A stretch of DNA of 33,257 bases from an uncultured Clostridia bacterium (lineage in GTDB: Bacteria > Bacillota > Clostridia > Oscillospirales > Acutalibacteraceae). Positions 4,078 through 33,107 of this stretch are shown here, one piece after another. The translations under genes and the position numbers were made by a program. The stretch spans positions 1 through 33,257 of the forward strand of contig CAMMRL010000030.1 in assembly GCA_946499275.1 (NCBI GenBank). The letters run 5' to 3'. Under the pieces are notes generated by a model. It had not been told where the DNA came from, searched no databases, and saw only the letters and a program-made list of their open reading frames with translations. The stretch's first letter is position 1. Every line of letters starts with the position of its first letter.

Positions 4078-5322
4078 TCAATATCCTTTCCAGCGGTTCT
4101 CGATTTCTTCCCGCACGATTTCCACAGCCCGGCGCGGCTTGCCAAGCTCCCCTTCCAGGGTATATACGTCGCGGAAAGTGAATTCCAGGCGGCACCCCTG
4201 CGCACAATCGATGGTATGGTCGATATATTGCCGGAACGCGTCCTCGTCCAGCGTTTTCCCCACCCCGACAAAATTGGGGCTGGGCTTGCGCTGATAAATC
4301 ACCGGTTTCCCGCGCAGCCGTTCGCCTATAAACTCTTCATCGCACCAGGGGGAGATGGACACCTTCCGCAGGTTGGATAGGGTGCTGATATATTTGTCCC
4401 AGAACGGATGGACCGGTTCGCAGCAGCCATACACCGTCAGACCGTACCGCTCCGTCACCTTTTTGTAGTAGGGGAAGATAAATTCCCCGAACATCTCCGG
4501 GGAGACCCCGACCGTTTCCTGAGAATCGGCGTATCCCCACAAATCCGATATCCGGATATTTTCCGTTTTCTCCGGGAGCTGCTCCGTATAGCCGAAAGTC
4601 CCCTGGCACACCCAATCGTTGGCATGGTTCAGGGACAGCATCTGCCGTTTCTCCAGCTCGTCGAACAAGGCAAGGTACCCGTCGGTCAGCAGGGACATGA
4701 GGGTGTGGAACTCATCCGGTGTCTCCATCATGGCGATGAACATATTCTCCATCCCCATGATGTTCACCACATCCTGTGTCAACGACGCATTGAGCGCGGT
4801 GCTCATCCGCACCTGCAAGATATCCCCCAGCACCTCGCGGGCAGTCTCCGCGTACCGGAGAGAATCCTCCCGATAAAAGGACAGGATAGAAGGTCTCAGT
4901 TTATCCATGTCCTCCGACAAATCCTGAATCTGTTCCTTGATATGGAACCCGATGCCGCCGTCGCTGCTGTGGACCCGGGTCACCAGGAGACCGAATGCCG
5001 TTATTTCATACCGCCATGGGCACAGGAATTCGGCAGTCACCACCCGGTCGTCCCCGATCAGTTCATGGTTGAGCATCGCCCATTTGAGCTGGAGCTCCAT
5101 CCGGCGGCCCAGCTCCGTTTCACAGGTCGCTACGGGCACAAAGCCTTTGTCCTCAACCGTGTTCCCCTCGAAAAAAACCATGGGTCTCTCGCCGCGCAGG
5201 TCGTTATGGGCTGTCCACAGCCGCGCCCGCTCCGCCATGACGGGAAGGGCGGCGATCTCCGCCTGACGCTTGGCAAGTTCACGGAGCGTTTCGCGGTCCC
5301 GGGTAGTGATCTGGTCCTCCAT
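4078..5322 (-). CDS. UroD/MtaA-superfamily protein A
   Basis: A 414-aa soluble barrel protein related to uroporphyrinogen decarboxylase and methylcobamide methyltransferases. The heme-pathway UroD N-terminal signature (GRPVWLMRQAGR type) is absent, so it is not a heme enzyme. MtaA-type proteins bind zinc with His-x-Cys plus a later Cys. Here the matching segment reads VYGCCEP (Cys300, Cys301), with Tyr in place of His, and a later Cys377 lies in QGCRLEF. It shares AHNDLRGERPMVF, VSPEMFGEF and YGCC with the protein at 30742-31986, which has exactly the same length, so the two are paralogues. A GGGGG site lies 7 bases before the ATG, and only 15 bp separate it from the upstream gene. Last gene of the long leftward operon. 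The reaction is unknown; methyl transfer is a family-based guess. Confidence 0.72.
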   Translation of the reverse strand: MEDQITTRDRETLRELAKRQAEIAALPVMAERARLWTAHNDLRGERPMVFFEGNTVEDKGFVPVATCETELGRRMELQLKWAMLNHELIGDDRVVTAEFLCPWRYEITAFGLLVTRVHSSDGGIGFHIKEQIQDLSEDMDKLRPSILSFYREDSLRYAETAREVLGDILQVRMSTALNASLTQDVVNIMGMENMFIAMMETPDEFHTLMSLLTDGYLALFDELEKRQMLSLNHANDWVCQGTFGYTEQLPEKTENIRISDLWGYADSQETVGVSPEMFGEFIFPYYKKVTERYGLTVYGCCEPVHPFWDKYISTLSNLRKVSISPWCDEEFIGERLRGKPVIYQRKPSPNFVGVGKTLDEDAFRQYIDHTIDCAQGCRLEFTFRDVYTLEGELGKPRRAVEIVREEIENRWKGY

Positions 5323-26086: not shown

Positions 26087-27931
26087 TTAACCATATACAC
26101 GGTCAAAAGCTTTTTGATAAACGCTCTTCCACTGGGCATAATCGGCCGAGTATTTGTTGATGTAGGCGTTCCAGTCGGTTTCCACATTAACCTTGCCCTG
26201 GATTGCGTCCACGCCCCATTGCAGGTCGCCCACCGTCAACTTATCAATCGTCGCCCGTTCGCTCTTGTTAAGCATCTGGTCGAGGGTGTAGAAGGAATAC
26301 TGCGGGGTGACCTCCGCCTTTTTGGCCTGAGCATACATACCGTTGTAGAATTTTTCCTGGCTGCTCATTTCCGAGGTGTTTCTGGCAATCAGCTTGTTGG
26401 TGGTGTAAAGGCCGAAATTCACGCCGGAATAGTTCGCAAGCTTTAAGTTATCCGCATTTTTTACCAGCTTGTACTTGCCACCGATCTTGGTGTAGGTGGT
26501 GCCGGCCGGGCCATAGTTCCACAGCATGGAGCCGTCGTCGGTATAGAAGTAATCCAGCCAACGCAGCGCCGCTTCGGGAGCTTTACAAGATTTGAAAATA
26601 AAGGCCAGGTTGGCATGGGACGTTGTGCCGTCCGCCTTTGCTCCGCTGTTTGTCTCGCTTACACCCGCAACATAATTGCCCGCTTCGGGAGCCTTTGGCC
26701 AGCCAATCGGAACCCAGTTCTCCCACTCGCTTTCACTGGCGAATTCGGTGATATACGGATACGCTACAATACCGCATTTCTTGAGCTGGGTTTTCAGCGC
26801 CGCGCTGGAAGCGCCGATCGCGTTTTTATTGATCAGCCCTTCGTCGTACAGCTTTTTCCAGTACCGGATGCCTTCGCGGAACTGGGTGGTCATCGTGCCG
26901 TTTTCCACGTTGCCCTTCTCATCAATGGAGCCACGGATGTACCAGCTCATATTGAGACCCCACGGGTTCCACATCTGCGCAGCCCACAGGGGAATGCCGA
27001 AACCTTCCTCGTCTTTTTTGCCGTTACCGTTGGGATCCTGGTTCTTGAAGGCTTTCAGCACCTTGTAAAACTCATCGGTCGTGGTAGGAATCTCCAGTCC
27101 CAGCTCATGCAGCCATTCCTGATTGATCATGAGCTGATATTCCTCTACCTGCGAATCCAGTTCCGGATAAATGCCCGGCAGTGCATATACCTTGCCGTTG
27201 GGCTGATAGGCGAAATTTTTGGAAGCAGGATACGAATTCACCATTTTGGCAATATTCCGCCCCCATGTGTCCATATACGGAGCCAGGTCCAGCACAATGC
27301 CCTGCTTTTCATAATCTTCCATTTCCGCGGTAGTGAAAATCAGGGAAGGCGAAATGAAAATATCCGGCTGGTTGCCGCTCTGCATGACCGACGCTTTGAC
27401 AACAAAGGAATCAAAGCTGTTATACGCTTTGTAGTTCACCTTGATCCCCGTCATCTTTTCATATTCCGTGGCAAACGCCTGCTTGCTAAAATCCATGAGT
27501 TCATCGCCCGGCACCATAACCGTCAGCGTCAACGAACCGTTGGTGACAATCGGGAAGCCGACGGAGTTCACCTTGTACCCGCCTTTGTCCAGTACAACGT
27601 TCTTATCCGGTCCGACGGTGGGGGTGGAACTGTCAATGTCACCGTCATCATTGCCGTCATTGCTACTGTCGGAATTGGGGGATGTCGGCCCACCTTCTTC
27701 CGGTGTGGTAGTCGCCCCCTCTTCGGTTGTCCCGCCGCTCGGGTCGGTGGCATCGCCACCCGTCGTTTCTCCGGTTCCCCCCGTTGTCGAGCCTGTGCCG
27801 CCCGACGTGGTGGAGCCGAGGTTCGAAGATTCCACCGGCTTTTGGCCGCCGCACGAGGTCAGCCCAATCAACATGACCAACGCCGCCAGAAGCGAGAACA
27901 GCCGGACACTGAACCGTTTGCCCTTACGCAT
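26087..27931 (-). CDS. Lipoprotein sugar-binding protein (family 1)
   Basis: A 614-aa lipid-anchored receptor of an ABC sugar importer. The lipobox is LTSC with Cys27 as the modified residue. A flexible Thr/Ser/Gly/Asp-rich linker spans about residues 30-110, lifting the binding fold through the wall. The mature domain shows LTLTVMVPGDELMDF, QSGNQPDIFISPSLIF, YALPGIYPELDSQVEEYQLMINQEWLHELGL in successive strands, and GLNMSWYIRG, all typical of family 1 (MalE-like) proteins. The start codon follows AGGAG by ten bases. It is 53 bp ahead of the surface-protein gene and 58 bp behind the barrel lipoprotein gene. It may serve permease pair 2 at 11893-13749, which has no receptor beside it, or feed both pairs. 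Confidence 0.88.
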   Translation of the reverse strand: MRKGKRFSVRLFSLLAALVMLIGLTSCGGQKPVESSNLGSTTSGGTGSTTGGTGETTGGDATDPSGGTTEEGATTTPEEGGPTSPNSDSSNDGNDDGDIDSSTPTVGPDKNVVLDKGGYKVNSVGFPIVTNGSLTLTVMVPGDELMDFSKQAFATEYEKMTGIKVNYKAYNSFDSFVVKASVMQSGNQPDIFISPSLIFTTAEMEDYEKQGIVLDLAPYMDTWGRNIAKMVNSYPASKNFAYQPNGKVYALPGIYPELDSQVEEYQLMINQEWLHELGLEIPTTTDEFYKVLKAFKNQDPNGNGKKDEEGFGIPLWAAQMWNPWGLNMSWYIRGSIDEKGNVENGTMTTQFREGIRYWKKLYDEGLINKNAIGASSAALKTQLKKCGIVAYPYITEFASESEWENWVPIGWPKAPEAGNYVAGVSETNSGAKADGTTSHANLAFIFKSCKAPEAALRWLDYFYTDDGSMLWNYGPAGTTYTKIGGKYKLVKNADNLKLANYSGVNFGLYTTNKLIARNTSEMSSQEKFYNGMYAQAKKAEVTPQYSFYTLDQMLNKSERATIDKLTVGDLQWGVDAIQGKVNVETDWNAYINKYSADYAQWKSVYQKAFDRVYG

Positions 27932-27989: not shown

Positions 27990-29186
27990 TCATTTCATTT
28001 TGCCTGTACAGATTTCCCGTCCAACCTTGATTTGTTCCGCCATCAGCGCATTCCAGGCGCCGCCGGTACCTTCGTTGATCTGCTTGAGTCCATACAGATC
28101 CTCAACCGAGGAGTCCGGGTTGAAATTGTATGCAAAACACATCAGCCCACCCGGCTTCTTTTCGGCCTTCAGCATATCGTACAGCATGTTGAGCTGCTGT
28201 ATCCAGCCGTCCATCTCCGCGGCGGCCGCATCGGGGTCGGACGCCAGGCTCTTGCTTCCGTAGCAGCCGGGTATGAACCAGATATATACATCGTCCCGTG
28301 CAACGCGCTGCTTCATGCTGGCGAGAACCGCGTCGAACCGCGCCTGATCGCCCCAATACATGTCGAACGCAATGTCCGTCAAATACTGCGCCTGGTCCGC
28401 CGTAACCGGTTCACGGATGCCGTCGCTGTAAATCTGAGGCGCCACGGTGGAAACCGTATAGCAGACGAAGAATCGTTTGCCATATTTTTGCGCGTATTTG
28501 CTCAGTGTCTTTACCGCTTCCTGGTCAACTGGTTCGTCCAGATACCAGCCCAGCAACGCGTCGTATGCGCCGGTAGCCTTAGCGTTGCTTACCAATTCGT
28601 CGAACTCCTCTTCCCAGCCTTGATAGCCGTTTACGATCATGTCGTACAAGGTATGTACCGAACACCACACGCGGGTATTATGCTCCTTGCAAAAGTTCAG
28701 CGTATAGTTGTCCGCTTCCGCGATAATCGTGTTGACATAATCGCCCTGAATAATGGAGGAGGCGCTGATGTCCAGTTCCAGCCTGTCCGGCGCCAACCCG
28801 TAGTAGCCAAAGCCGATGTCGCTGGTTTTCCGGGAGGACAGCGATGCAGGCGGCTTCTTGGTGGGCGAAGTGGTGGGAAGGGAAGTCGTCTCTTTCGTGG
28901 TGGTAGTCTGCGGCTTATCGGTTTCCACCTGCGTTGTGGTCGTACTTTCAGCGGATGTCTCCTGACTATTCCCCGTAGTGGAGGTAGTGCCGGTAGAGCC
29001 ACGTGCGGTACTGTTGTCCGTTGTCCCTCCGGATTTGGTAGTAGTTCCGCTGGGTGTACTGGACGCCCCGTTTCCACCGCAGCCGGTCAACAGCAGGACG
29101 GCAACCGTCAATAGGCACAGTACTTTCCCCGGAATGCCTATCCATGCCGATCGTCCGGGACGTCTTGCCGCCTGTTTTCTTTTCAT
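27990..29186 (-). CDS. Lipoprotein with a glycosidase-like barrel
   Basis: A 398-aa lipid-anchored surface protein and the first gene of the long leftward operon. The ATG at 29186 is chosen because AGGAG lies eight bases before it; the ATG at 29192 is only two bases from it. The lipobox LLTGC makes Cys36 the lipid site. Residues about 40-120 are a Ser/Thr-rich linker like that of the next lipoprotein. The C-terminal domain (about 121-398) looks like a TIM barrel: GFGYYGLAPDRLELDI, FCKEHNTRVWCSVHTL, GWYLDEP (Asp217, Glu218), FDMYWGD and YIWFIPGCYG. The DEP end of a strand is where clan-A-like glycosidases keep acid residues, so I infer a surface glycan hydrolase related to the DUF4434 type. 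The substrate is unknown. Confidence 0.72.
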   Translation of the reverse strand: MKRKQAARRPGRSAWIGIPGKVLCLLTVAVLLLTGCGGNGASSTPSGTTTKSGGTTDNSTARGSTGTTSTTGNSQETSAESTTTTQVETDKPQTTTTKETTSLPTTSPTKKPPASLSSRKTSDIGFGYYGLAPDRLELDISASSIIQGDYVNTIIAEADNYTLNFCKEHNTRVWCSVHTLYDMIVNGYQGWEEEFDELVSNAKATGAYDALLGWYLDEPVDQEAVKTLSKYAQKYGKRFFVCYTVSTVAPQIYSDGIREPVTADQAQYLTDIAFDMYWGDQARFDAVLASMKQRVARDDVYIWFIPGCYGSKSLASDPDAAAAEMDGWIQQLNMLYDMLKAEKKPGGLMCFAYNFNPDSSVEDLYGLKQINEGTGGAWNALMAEQIKVGREICTGKMK

Positions 29187-29329
29187 CGTCATCTCTCCTT
29201 TATGCGTACATTTGCGATGCACCCTTCGTACACCAAAGCCTTATAAGGGGACGAGCGGAATATTTCGGTCATTTTGTTTTGTTTTTCGCCAATCATCATT
29301 CTTTAATTATTCATTTTCACAGCATCTCT

Positions 29330-29338
29330 ATCATAGCA
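29330..29338 (-). promoter_or_regulatory. Extended -10 promoter of the leftward operon
   Basis: On the - strand TGCTATGAT forms an extended -10 box (TGN plus TATGAT), and no good TTGACA lies 16-18 bp upstream. Weak -35 plus extended -10 fits a promoter that needs an activator. The expected start is near 29323, about 137 nt before the first gene. Confidence 0.6.
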
Positions 29339-29348
29339 GAGTCGTTAT

Positions 29349-29397
29349 TGAAATGTGTAACAAATCCTTTATACTTCTGAATGGAATGTAACCTATT
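29349..29397 (-). promoter_or_regulatory. Bipartite regulatory element, copy A
   Basis: The + strand shows TGAAATGTGTAACA (29349-29362) and TGTAACCTATT (29387-29397). Their starts are 38 bp apart, and the proximal part begins 14 bp from the -10 box. The same arrangement occurs at 32084-32132 before the third UroD-like gene. Read on the - strand, both parts contain GTTACA. The adjacent AraC-type protein is the natural candidate binder. The proximal part also resembles a CcpA cre site without its central CG, so catabolite control cannot be excluded. Confidence 0.6.
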
Positions 29398-29589
29398 CTT
29401 TGATGTTTCTAAAATTTCAAAGTAAGCGAAAAATATATCTTTATTGCTGATACAAAAAAATTGCAGATATTTCCTTCTATAATCGCAAAATTTATTCTTA
29501 AACTGTTTATTTTTACCTGCTTGTGTGTCAACAGAGCCCCCCTTCACCTGGCCAACGCTTTAATAGTTAACAATGAGTGGCATCTCTTT

Positions 29590-29603
29590 TTTGTTACAGA
29601 TTC
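29590..29603 (+). promoter_or_regulatory. Possible self-regulatory site of the AraC-type gene
   Basis: TTTGTTACAGATTC lies directly against the -35 box of the regulator promoter. It matches the proximal site of element A read on the other strand (TTTGTTACACATTT) at 12 of 14 positions. Binding here would interfere with RNA polymerase, suggesting autoregulation. Confidence 0.45.
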
Positions 29604-29632
29604 TTGTATTTTCATCCGGCATACCCTATAAT
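29604..29632 (+). promoter_or_regulatory. Promoter of the AraC-type regulator gene
   Basis: TTGTAT (29604-29609) and a perfect TATAAT (29627-29632) are separated by 17 bp. Transcription would start near 29639, leaving a 25-nt leader, which supports the ATG at 29664 as the start. Confidence 0.75.
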
Positions 29633-29663
29633 GAAGACGTGGAATGGAGATAGGAAGATCGAT

Positions 29664-30635
29664 ATGCCGGTCTTTGATTATCGTTTATGCAAAGCCTGCA
29701 CACAAAGCTGCGGTATTCAGCCGGTTTTGTTTTATCAGCGTACTTTTCAGCCCAAATTCCCCATGCAGATGCATCGGCATATTACCATTGAAGGGATGTA
29801 CGCAGAAAGCAATACCTTTTTTGTGGAGTTCGTTTCACCGGATGGATCACAAGACAGCATAATCCGTGTTAAGCAGGGGGAACTCATCCTCATCAACAGC
29901 TTTGTCTATCATCGCCTGCTGTTTGACGATAATCCCGCCCGTATTTTTAATGTAGAATTTAAGGTGGTGCCTTTGGATGCCGTGCTTCCCTACAGCGCCG
30001 ACCTGAACAGCCTGTATACCTACTCAAAAAGCTTCGCGGATTTTGTGGACGAGGATTGGGATTATGTCATCATAAGCGACAGCGGCGATTCGATCCGCCA
30101 TCTTATCCTGGACATCCAGTCCTATTGCGACCGGGAAAAAGGTGCTGACAACCAGGATCTTACGAATCGCCTTTCCCTACAGCTGCTCACAGCCCAATTC
30201 TTTCTGAAATGCAGCAGCGCTTATTACGACAACCTCAGGGATACTTCTTCCGATTTTATAAGCAGGATTAAAAAGTTTATCAGCCAAAATCTTGACCAGG
30301 ATATCCGGATATCGGATATCTCCGTAGAAGTGAATATGAACCCTAGTTATTTGGAAACCCTGTTCAAAAAACAAACCGGTATGACTGTAGTGGAATATAT
30401 CAATCAACAAAGAATACTCAAAGCCGTTTCCTATCTGAGTTCCACCGACCAGTCGATCACCGATATCGGTTATTTGATCGGATATAACAACCGCCAGCAT
30501 TTTTCCCGGGTTTTTCGGAAGATGATGGGGGTATCTCCCGGCCAGTATCGGAAAAATGTGCGGCTGACTAAAATCCAGAATTATGAGGATAACAACGACC
30601 CGATCGTGGAAGGGTACTACGATAACCCGCAATAG
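29664..30635 (+). CDS. AraC/XylS-family transcriptional regulator
   Basis: A 323-aa regulator. The N-terminal half is a cupin-like sensor domain (about residues 20-105, FPMQMHRHITIEGMY and GELILINSFVYHRL), where the His residues commonly line a sugar pocket. A Cys-rich start (LCKACTQSCG) is unusual and could bind metal or sense redox state. The C-terminal double helix-turn-helix spans about 200-298, with ISDISVEVNMNPSYLETLFK and the family signature DIGYLIGYNNRQHFSRVF, then FRKMMGVSPGQYRK. The ATG at 29664 has AGGA eight bases upstream and fits the promoter; earlier in-frame starts lie in or before the promoter. It lies between the start of the long leftward operon and the third UroD-like gene, whose promoters share an element. 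It is probably their activator. Confidence 0.9.
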   Translation: MPVFDYRLCKACTQSCGIQPVLFYQRTFQPKFPMQMHRHITIEGMYAESNTFFVEFVSPDGSQDSIIRVKQGELILINSFVYHRLLFDDNPARIFNVEFKVVPLDAVLPYSADLNSLYTYSKSFADFVDEDWDYVIISDSGDSIRHLILDIQSYCDREKGADNQDLTNRLSLQLLTAQFFLKCSSAYYDNLRDTSSDFISRIKKFISQNLDQDIRISDISVEVNMNPSYLETLFKKQTGMTVVEYINQQRILKAVSYLSSTDQSITDIGYLIGYNNRQHFSRVFRKMMGVSPGQYRKNVRLTKIQNYEDNNDPIVEGYYDNPQ

Positions 30636-30670
30636 CCCCGTCACCAGCGTTTGGATGGGACAGCGGCGCC

Positions 30671-30714
30671 AAAAACACCCCGGAACCGGCAAATCCGGTC
30701 CCGGGGTGTTTTTT
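30671..30714. terminator. Bidirectional terminator between convergent genes
   Basis: A long stem (A-run plus CACCCCGG and ACCGG, pairing with CCGGT and CCGGGGTG plus a T-run, with one mismatch) closes on a CAAAT loop. TTTTTT follows on the + strand (30709-30714), and AAAAA (30671-30675) gives TTTTT on the - strand. It ends both the AraC-type gene and the leftward UroD-like gene. Confidence 0.9.
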
Positions 30715-30741
30715 ACACCAATTCCCTTAATATCGACGGGA

Positions 30742-31986
30742 TTACTCCCAAACGTCGTCAATGGCTTTCCGGGCGATTTCCACCCACTTGCCGAAACGGG
30801 TAGGATCGTTCCGGCAGGTGTGCGTATCCCGCAGAATTAGTTCGATGATCCCGCCCCGTGCCTTTTGCAGCCCCTGTTCCAGTTCTCCCTTCACTTCGGT
30901 GGGATTCCATTCCTCTAGCGCCAGCGGCATAGGCTTGGGCTTCCAGGTCATGATATAGCCCTTTTTGAGTACCGGCGTAAATTTGGCGATATCGGCCCAG
31001 GGGCAGACGGCAACCCGGCGCAGGTTCTTAATCTTCAGCACGTTGTCCAGCTTGGCCGACAAATCGTCACAGCAGCCGTAACCATTCAGCCCGAACGGTT
31101 CCAGCAATTCCCGTTCATACTGCAGGACAAACTCCTCGTGCATTTCCGGGGAGACCTGAGCGAACTCCTGCGCTTCCGCCGCACCCCAAACGTCGCAAAG
31201 CCGGACGCGATCTGGCCGGAAACCGGGAGCCGGCAATTCGTCCGTATACCCCACGCCGCCCGTGTAATGGAACGTCCGGTCGTTGTTCAGCGAGATCAAG
31301 TTCTGTTCTTCATACTGCCGGAGCATCGATTTCACGCCATCCGTAAAAAAGCGCATGACTTCATGGACCATTTCCGGCTCGTCGTATAGGTCGAACAGAA
31401 GGTTATCTAGCCCACGGTAATCGCAATACCAATGCATCAGATGAAAATCGAAGTCCTTCACGCCGACCAGGCTGACCGGCACCAGATCCCCGATGGCGTC
31501 GGCAATAAAATCGAAATCGCTTTGGGAACGTTTTTCGTCGTGTGTCACCACAGGCATGGACAGTTTTTTCCAGTCGGACGGTTCCTCGATAATCGGCAGC
31601 ATCCGATATGCCCCGCGCTCCCCCGTCCTCTCCCGCAGGGGTTCCACTCCCCACATGGTGTTGGTAATCGCTTTTTTTACTTCGATTTCCGCGGTAATCG
31701 GCACATCGTCGCGGATATACTGATGCCGGATTAGCCGTCTACGGAGTTCCCGTTCCGTCGCTCTGGCCACCGGCGTCTCACATTCCAAGGAGGATTCCGG
31801 GAGCAGTTCAGTCCATGCGCCGTCCGGGAACACAAACACCATAGGCTTATCGCCCCGCAAACTATTATGCCGTTTCCACCGTTCGATCTTCTTCTCGTTG
31901 TTTTCCGGGTCGGCGGCTATTTCCCGGATCGCAGCGGCAAGCGGCCGCAGGATTTTCTTATCATTCTGGCAATCGTACCGGTACAT
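30742..31986 (-). CDS. UroD/MtaA-superfamily protein C
   Basis: A 414-aa soluble protein and a clear paralogue of the protein at 4078-5322, with the same length and shared RHNSLRGDKPMVF, VSPEMHEEF, YGCC (Cys305, Cys306) and a matching CPWAD segment. The late Cys of protein A is shifted here: ELILRDTHTCRND (Cys391). The heme-pathway UroD signature is absent. The ATG at 31986 is preferred to that at 32004 because GAGGGA lies about seven bases before it. It stands alone, but its promoter carries the same bipartite element as the long operon, so it is probably co-induced. A methyl-transfer or related C-C or C-O cleavage reaction on a sugar-derived compound is possible, but no corrinoid protein is encoded nearby. 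Confidence 0.74.
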   Translation of the reverse strand: MYRYDCQNDKKILRPLAAAIREIAADPENNEKKIERWKRHNSLRGDKPMVFVFPDGAWTELLPESSLECETPVARATERELRRRLIRHQYIRDDVPITAEIEVKKAITNTMWGVEPLRERTGERGAYRMLPIIEEPSDWKKLSMPVVTHDEKRSQSDFDFIADAIGDLVPVSLVGVKDFDFHLMHWYCDYRGLDNLLFDLYDEPEMVHEVMRFFTDGVKSMLRQYEEQNLISLNNDRTFHYTGGVGYTDELPAPGFRPDRVRLCDVWGAAEAQEFAQVSPEMHEEFVLQYERELLEPFGLNGYGCCDDLSAKLDNVLKIKNLRRVAVCPWADIAKFTPVLKKGYIMTWKPKPMPLALEEWNPTEVKGELEQGLQKARGGIIELILRDTHTCRNDPTRFGKWVEIARKAIDDVWE

Positions 31987-32063
31987 GGCTTTCCCTCTTT
32001 CCATTCCACTGTTACTCTTTATGCAAGCGACAGGAAATCTCCCGCCACTGCTTTTCTCTCGTC

Positions 32064-32072
32064 AGTATACCA
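32064..32072 (-). promoter_or_regulatory. Extended -10 promoter of UroD-like gene C
   Basis: On the - strand TGGTATACT is an extended -10 box, again without a usable -35 hexamer at 16-18 bp. This is the same promoter style as that of the long operon. The start would lie near 32057, about 70 nt before the ATG. Confidence 0.6.
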
Positions 32073-32083
32073 CAGCGAATTGC

Positions 32084-32132
32084 TGAAAGATGGAACATAT
32101 TTATTTTATTTTTTGCACATTTGTAACCTATT
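32084..32132 (-). promoter_or_regulatory. Bipartite regulatory element, copy B
   Basis: The + strand shows TGAAAGATGGAACA (32084-32097) and TGTAACCTATT (32122-32132). The second part is identical to that of copy A over 11 bases, and the first matches at 11 of 14. Spacing between parts is 38 bp in both copies, and the distance to the -10 box is 15 bp against 14 bp. Confidence 0.6.
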
Positions 32133-32525: not shown

Positions 32526-32527
32526 AT

Positions 32528-32643
32528 GTTGGCATCTGCTTATCTTCCCAGGCCGCTTCCAGCCAAGTATTGTCAGCGCAAGTGAGCTTAACTACCGTGT
32601 TCGGGATGGGAACGGGTGTACCCTCACCGCCATCGACACCAAC
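32528..32643 (-). rRNA. rrf: 5S ribosomal RNA, distal copy
   Basis: The - strand carries the universal 5S core CCCGTTCCCATCCCGAACAC. The ends pair as helix I (GUUGGUGUC with GAUGCCAAC), giving 116 nt. It differs from the proximal copy by a compensated U-A pair in helix I and by one internal base (CGGTAGT against CGGCAGT). Confidence 0.93.
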
Positions 32644-32672
32644 TATACAGGATGTTATAATCCATCCTGATT

Positions 32673-32748
32673 TGGCTCCCCCTGTTGGGCTCGAACCAAC
32701 GACCCTGCGGTTAACAGCCGCATGCTCTACCGACTGAGCTAAGGAGGA
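32673..32748 (-). tRNA. tRNA-Asn (GTT)
   Basis: A 76-nt tRNA with encoded CCA. The acceptor stem is UCCUCCU with AGGGGGA, the D-arm is AGCTCAGTCGGTAGAGC, the anticodon loop is CTGTTAA with GTT, and the T-arm is TGGTTCGAGCCCA. It lies between the two 5S copies. Confidence 0.95.
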
Positions 32749-32756
32749 ATATTTGT

Positions 32757-32872
32757 GTCGGCATCTGCTTATCTTCCCAGGCCGCTTCCAGCCAAGTATT
32801 GTCAGCGCAAGTGAGCTTAACTGCCGTGTTCGGGATGGGAACGGGTGTACCCTCACCGCCATCGACACCGAC
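32757..32872 (-). rRNA. rrf: 5S ribosomal RNA, proximal copy
   Basis: 116 nt, with the same core as the distal copy. Helix I is GUCGGUGUC with GAUGCCGAC, so a C-G pair replaces the U-A pair of the other copy. It is 8 nt ahead of tRNA-Asn in transcription order. Confidence 0.93.
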
Positions 32873-32891
32873 TATATGCAAAACCCAGAGG

Positions 32892-32908
32892 AAAAACCTC
32901 CAGAGGTT
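32892..32908 (-). terminator. Weak terminator-like hairpin between tRNA-Glu and 5S
   Basis: On the - strand AACCT-CTGG-AGGTT is followed by TTT. The stem is only 5 bp, so it may be a processing or attenuation element in the 80-nt spacer rather than a full stop. Confidence 0.3.
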
Positions 32909-32952
32909 TTGTGATGGAAATCCGTAGAAAAATTCCACGGATGCCTTTGGTA

Positions 32953-33028
32953 TGGTGACCCGTACGAGATTCGAACTCGTGTTGCCGGCGTGAGAGGCCG
33001 GAGTCTTAGGCCACTTGACCAACGGGCC
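32953..33028 (-). tRNA. tRNA-Glu (CTC)
   Basis: A 76-nt tRNA with encoded CCA. The acceptor stem is GGCCCGU with ACGGGUC, the anticodon stem is CCGGC/GCCGG and the loop is CTCTCAC, giving CTC. The T-arm reads CGAGTTCGAATCTCG. Confidence 0.94.
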
Positions 33029-33031
33029 ATA

Positions 33032-33107
33032 TGGTGCACCATCAGGGACTCGAACCCGGGACACCCTGATTAAGAGTCAGGTGCTCTACCAACTGAGCTA
33101 ATGGTGC
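33032..33107 (-). tRNA. tRNA-Lys (CTT)
   Basis: A 76-nt tRNA with encoded CCA. The acceptor stem is GCACCAU with AUGGUGC, the anticodon loop is CTCTTAA with CTT, and the T-arm reads CGGGTTCGAGTCCCT-like. It is the first gene of the cluster, 3 nt ahead of tRNA-Glu. Confidence 0.95.

Follow-up and report, generated by a model that had tools for sequence, protein, structure and literature searches.

The stretch of DNA considered here, referred to as the window, comprises 33,257 nucleotides from an uncultured Clostridia bacterium of the Acutalibacteraceae (GCA_946499275.1, contig CAMMRL010000030.1). It harbors an AraC-type gene flanked by two transcription units of the minus strand, a 15-gene operon (4078-29186) and a separate gene for a UroD-like protein of 420 amino acids (30742-32004). 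An initial annotation had noted a bipartite element shared by the promoters of these two units and had proposed that a single activator controls both, with the product of the intervening AraC-type gene as the obvious candidate. The question raised by the locus is whether this protein is that activator, and how it might act upon the two promoters.

The genes of the operon all run in one direction, with gaps of no more than 60 bp except for one of 180 bp. They encode a 999-amino acid solute-binding protein, a lipoprotein (26087-27931) whose relatives adjoin permease genes, and four permeases, one of which is matched weakly. The operon also includes genes for an NHL/Yip1 protein, a DUF5696 protein (a domain on which the literature searched yielded no paper), a melibiase-like GH36 protein, and a GFO/IDH/MocA-like protein, and it ends with a second UroD-like protein (4078-5322, minus strand). 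The two UroD-like paralogues are about 28% identical and belong to one putative regulon.

The term UroD-like, as applied earlier to the gene at 30742-32004, is borne out by the fold but not by Pfam, where the match to PF01208 reaches 12.7 bits against a cut-off of 23.9. The AlphaFold2 model of this protein (pLDDT 86.8, pTM 0.86) has the UROD-type barrel of the URO-D fold superfamily, and its top PDB matches are all either UROD or a Methanosarcina mazei methyltransferase, with E-values from 5e-7 and TM-scores, by target, of at most 0.59. The relatives within this UroD-like family contain an invariant YGCC motif; most of them also fail to match Pfam URO-D, which is matched at 0.01 by 3 of the 11. 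Directly upstream of the promoter of the UroD-like gene are two genes for 5S rRNA, interspersed with those for tRNA-Asn, tRNA-Glu, and tRNA-Lys (32527-33107, minus strand). An rRNA/tRNA cluster ends at this locus, and such a position is a common place for insertion.

The two-part promoter element

Read in the orientation of the genes, both promoters contain AATAGGTTACA-N24-TGTT(A/C)CA-NN-TTTCA, and the hexamer of a TGn-extended -10 begins after a further 13 or 14 bp. The arrangement is AATAGGTTACA-N24-TGTTACACATTTCA-N13-TATGAT at the operon promoter, where the ATG of the first gene is at 29186, and AATAGGTTACA-N24-TGTTCCATCTTTCA-N14-TATACT at the promoter of the UroD-like gene, where the ATG is at 32004; both copies serve genes on the minus strand. 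The hexamers, TATGAT (29330-29335, minus strand) after TGC and TATACT (32064-32069, minus strand) after TGG, match the consensus, and transcription would be expected to start 7 nt beyond them, near 29323 and 32057, respectively. With these predicted starts the element spans -26 to -74 at the operon and -27 to -75 at the UroD-like gene.

The distal half-site, which is the exact 11-mer AATAGGTTACA, occupies 29387-29397 (about -64 to -74) at the operon promoter and 32122-32132 (about -65 to -75) at that of the UroD-like gene, both on the minus strand. The proximal half-site is found at 29349-29362 as TGTTACACATTTCA (about -26 to -39, across the -35 position) and at 32084-32097 as TGTTCCATCTTTCA (about -27 to -40), again on the minus strand. 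These are the positions at which the two parts of the element had been reported as TGTAACCTATT and TGAAANNTGNAACA, and both parts are indeed present there, with the same 38-bp offset in each copy.

At the core of the element, GTTACA is followed by GTT(A/C)CA as a direct repeat, with the two boxes exactly 31 bp apart at both promoters. This distance corresponds to three helical turns, so that the half-sites have the layout of an AraC-type operator, namely a direct repeat with an integral number of turns between its boxes. Agreement between the distal and proximal boxes is limited to GTTACA. AraC-type activators bind direct-repeat half-sites with one monomer on each, and in class II activation the proximal monomer lies over the -35 position.

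The placement of the element with respect to the promoters conforms to this class II arrangement, in that the proximal half-site lies over the -35 position of promoters with a poor -35 of their own, as judged with inferred starts. Between the end of the proximal TGTT(A/C)CA and the -10 hexamer there are 20 or 21 bp. The extended -10 that had been placed after the proximal part is found at both promoters, with TGn before each hexamer, but the distance of 14 or 15 bp given for it has to be corrected to 13 or 14 intervening bp between TTTCA and the hexamer. Similarly, the description of these promoters as lacking a -35 holds insofar as there is no good one, but the operon promoter does have a poor TACACA, with an 18-bp spacer, which sits within the proximal box.

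The AraC-type protein and its promoter

The gene between the two promoters (29664-30635, plus strand) encodes a protein of 323 amino acids with a cupin sensor and an AraC DNA-binding domain. Its listed reading frame is open from a GTG at 29577; from a reading of the sequence, we place the start at the ATG at 29664, behind an AGGA and 37 nt from a TATAAT at 29627. The C-terminal part contains the two helix-turn-helix motifs of the AraC/XylS family, with matches to PF12833 (86.4 bits, cut-off 33.6, 1.7e-24) and PF00165 (83.4 bits, cut-off 26.6). The best NCBIfam profile is AraC (1e-29, residues 188-329), at a score below its equivalog cut-off, and the relatives in the PDB are AraC, SoxS, and RamA.

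For the N-terminal half, the Pfam search returned no cupin or AraC_binding match and no other family covering it. The AlphaFold2 model, built on a 12-sequence alignment, has a mean pLDDT of 77.9 with uncertain orientation of the domains, and pLDDT values mostly of 84-91 in the beta-barrel region. The predicted N-terminal fold matches the lactose sensor BgaR (6nwh, TM-score by target 0.67) and the arabinose domain of AraC (2arc, 0.64), and corresponds to a ligand-binding domain of the cupin type. A cysteine cluster, CKACTQSC, at residues 9-16 (29688-29711, plus strand) is not common as a set to the aligned homologues and is a possible metal or redox site.

The putative promoter of the araC gene (29604-29632, plus strand), as read from the sequence, consists of a TTGTAT -35, a 17-bp spacer, and the TATAAT -10 (29627-29632). 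Directly upstream of its -35, and in the direction of araC, lies a candidate third half-site, TTTGTTACAGATT (29590-29602, plus strand), which was absent from the initial annotation. The pattern TTTGTTACANATT, chosen after the site had been seen, occurs three times in the genome, two of them beside araC. The score of the third half-site was reached by 32 of 5000 shuffles, and two sites in coding regions of the window score higher. This single, weaker half-site tentatively suggests autoregulation. The remaining genomic match to TTTGTTACANATT (C61) is directed into the 3'-terminal part of a neighboring gene and not at a promoter, and was rejected. A 31-bp repeat was likewise not counted at the araC promoter, where an AATAG-like box is present at 29562-29572 but the spacing from GTTA to GTTACA is 27 bp.

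Candidate regulators of the element

A motif search of the genome, which the initial annotation had suggested as a check, was carried out by pattern searches of the 2.5 Mb assembly (90 contigs, 94% complete). Allowing up to three mismatches, the element is found at two sites, both at this locus, and the same is true of the exact distal 11-mer and of the proximal box combined with a TGn-extended -10. The minimal repeat GTTACA-N25-GTTNCA occurs three times, the third being GC-rich and apparently part of a coding sequence for a desulfoferrodoxin-like protein. The proposal would have been refuted had the element turned up at many unrelated promoters; the copies of the element are instead confined to this locus. 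Although the genome has about 20 AraC-domain matches, this uniqueness is what would be expected of a local regulator dedicated to a single locus.

Comparison with relatives bears on how the regulator can be assigned. The element was not found above the reversed-pattern control in 397 other genomes of the family, nor was it found in nine genomes with UroD-like relatives. No orthologue of the regulator was found: in searches of genome contigs and of the order (394 genomes) and the class (391 genomes), matches are confined to the DNA-binding domain or have a sensor domain of no more than 32% identity. The assignment to the local AraC protein therefore rests on neighborhood and architecture.

Two related loci were followed further. 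A genome from another family of the order (G057) contains a copy of the UroD-like protein with 76% identity, 11 bp behind a serine recombinase gene (L131:1859-4665, contig 61), in a locus that has neither the operon nor araC nor the element, and therefore offers no promoter for comparison. The proximity of this copy to a recombinase gene suggests horizontal transfer. In a genome of the same genus (G004; L149/L150, contig 71), a homologous transport operon is associated with a different, in-line AraC gene, and its promoter contains a run of N; for these reasons it is of no use for the comparison. The pairing of regulator and operon thus differs between the two species, and the G004 operon also contains three tandem copies related to the first operon gene.

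From the three-turn repeat, its class II position, its uniqueness to the locus, and the presence of a complete AraC-type protein, we consider it likely that this protein, whose gene lies between the two promoters, has the element as its operator, which supports the earlier proposal of one shared activator. An improbable alternative is that the element is a genuine shared operator of a regulator encoded elsewhere in the genome, be it a second protein of the AraC type or a two-component response regulator containing an AraC domain. The number of AraC-domain matches in the genome leaves room for such a regulator, and response regulators of this type in Clostridia use the same tandem-repeat layout (PMC8579813). 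Against it, all of the genomic copies of the site flank this araC gene and a further half-site is found at the promoter of araC itself. Moreover, local regulators usually adjoin their targets.

It is less probable still that the element represents a sigma-factor or basal promoter signal, in which TGTAAC and TGAAA on the plus strand would act as -35-like motifs. TGTAAC resembles the -35 motifs of some ECF sigma factors, and a plus-strand TTGAAA-16-TATACT overlaps the operon proximal box; however, the second copy of the element lacks this plus-strand -10 partner and does not face any nearby gene on the plus strand. What is conserved is the distance to the extended -10 boxes of the minus strand, and a promoter signal would be expected at other promoters, yet the pattern occurs only here.

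A chance resemblance or the remnant of a promoter duplication is equally remote. When the two upstream regions were dinucleotide-shuffled to give 8000 pairs, 590 of the pairs had some exact 11-mer in common, so that such a match alone is not rare for regions of this size. Only 2 pairs had, in addition, an 11/14 block on that diagonal no more than 60 bp away, a figure that leaves out the matching position relative to the TGn-extended -10 at both promoters. Identity aligned on the element is at chance level upstream (17/60), in the spacer (9/24), and downstream (12/60), in keeping with the earlier view that the match is not a simple duplication.

On the evidence of the sequence, the AraC-type protein very probably switches on the operon and the UroD-like gene together. 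We infer that it would act as a dimer with ligand bound in the cupin sensor, with one of its monomers at the distal box AATAGGTTACA and the other at the proximal TGTT(A/C)CA-NN-TTTCA. The proximal monomer would stand in for the -35 through contact with sigma region 4, such that the 15-gene sugar or oligosaccharide uptake operon and the separate UroD-like gene would be induced together, and the regulator may also control its own gene through the weaker single half-site upstream of the araC -35. The ligand is most likely a sugar or oligosaccharide derived from the substrate of the GH36/ABC-importer operon.

These predictions provide a concrete and testable candidate operator for an uncharacterized AraC-type regulator, and tie a URO-D-fold enzyme without placement to a sugar-import operon. 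A possible, though on balance doubtful, extension is that the two divergent URO-D-fold proteins, co-induced with oligosaccharide import and GH36 under an AraC-type activator with a three-turn operator, belong to a branch that acts in the breakdown of a modified (e.g., O-methylated) sugar. The wider use of the findings is limited, in that this layout is already an established one among AraC-type regulators, and the relatives searched show no conservation of either the regulator or the element.

Comparison with known systems

In its overall organization the locus resembles E. coli AraC at araBAD (araI1-I2) and XylS at Pm, where direct-repeat half-sites lie on one face of the helix with the proximal one at the -35 position, and where the protein has an N-terminal ligand-binding domain and a C-terminal double helix-turn-helix. 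The sensor is about 9% identical in the fold alignment of this comparison. The araI half-sites are 21 bp apart, as against 31 bp here. The half-sites of XylS at Pm (TGCA-N6-GGNTA-N6 repeated) also differ in being 21 bp apart (PMC4514859), and the likeness of the proximal box, TGTT-N6-TTCA, to the box-N6-box monomer site TGCA-N6-GGNTA is suggestive only.

Widely spaced half-sites are known from RhaR and RhaS of E. coli, with RhaR recognizing two 17-bp half-sites across a 17-bp spacer, but those are inverted rather than direct repeats; the AraC-family rhamnose regulators of Bacillales and Enterococcus have a 21-bp period (PMC3870299). AggR, an activator of the AraC family, has its sites 21-22 bp before the -10, and the bound protein overlaps the -35 (PMC6392122). 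In the promoters described here, the putative activator site likewise takes the place of a -35, at a distance of about 21 bp from the -10, but whereas AggR needs a single site, a second, distal box is conserved 31 bp upstream.

Carbohydrate regulons of Caldicellulosiruptor provide a further parallel. The search for operators there was directed at tandem repeats whose period was 21 or 32 bp, described as two or three DNA turns, and the AraC-domain regulators, inferred to be activators, use widely spaced tandem repeats that precede promoters (PMC8579813). As with PecR, PecR2, HemR, and AxuRS in that genus, a local AraC-type regulator is found beside an ABC importer and glycan genes, and the sites, compared by layout, are likewise direct repeats with a large nonconserved spacer upstream of a promoter (PMC8579813). 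The present locus differs in its period of 31 bp and in the use of two separate promoters, possibly together with that of araC itself. The kind of control is therefore well known, and this locus represents a further example of it.
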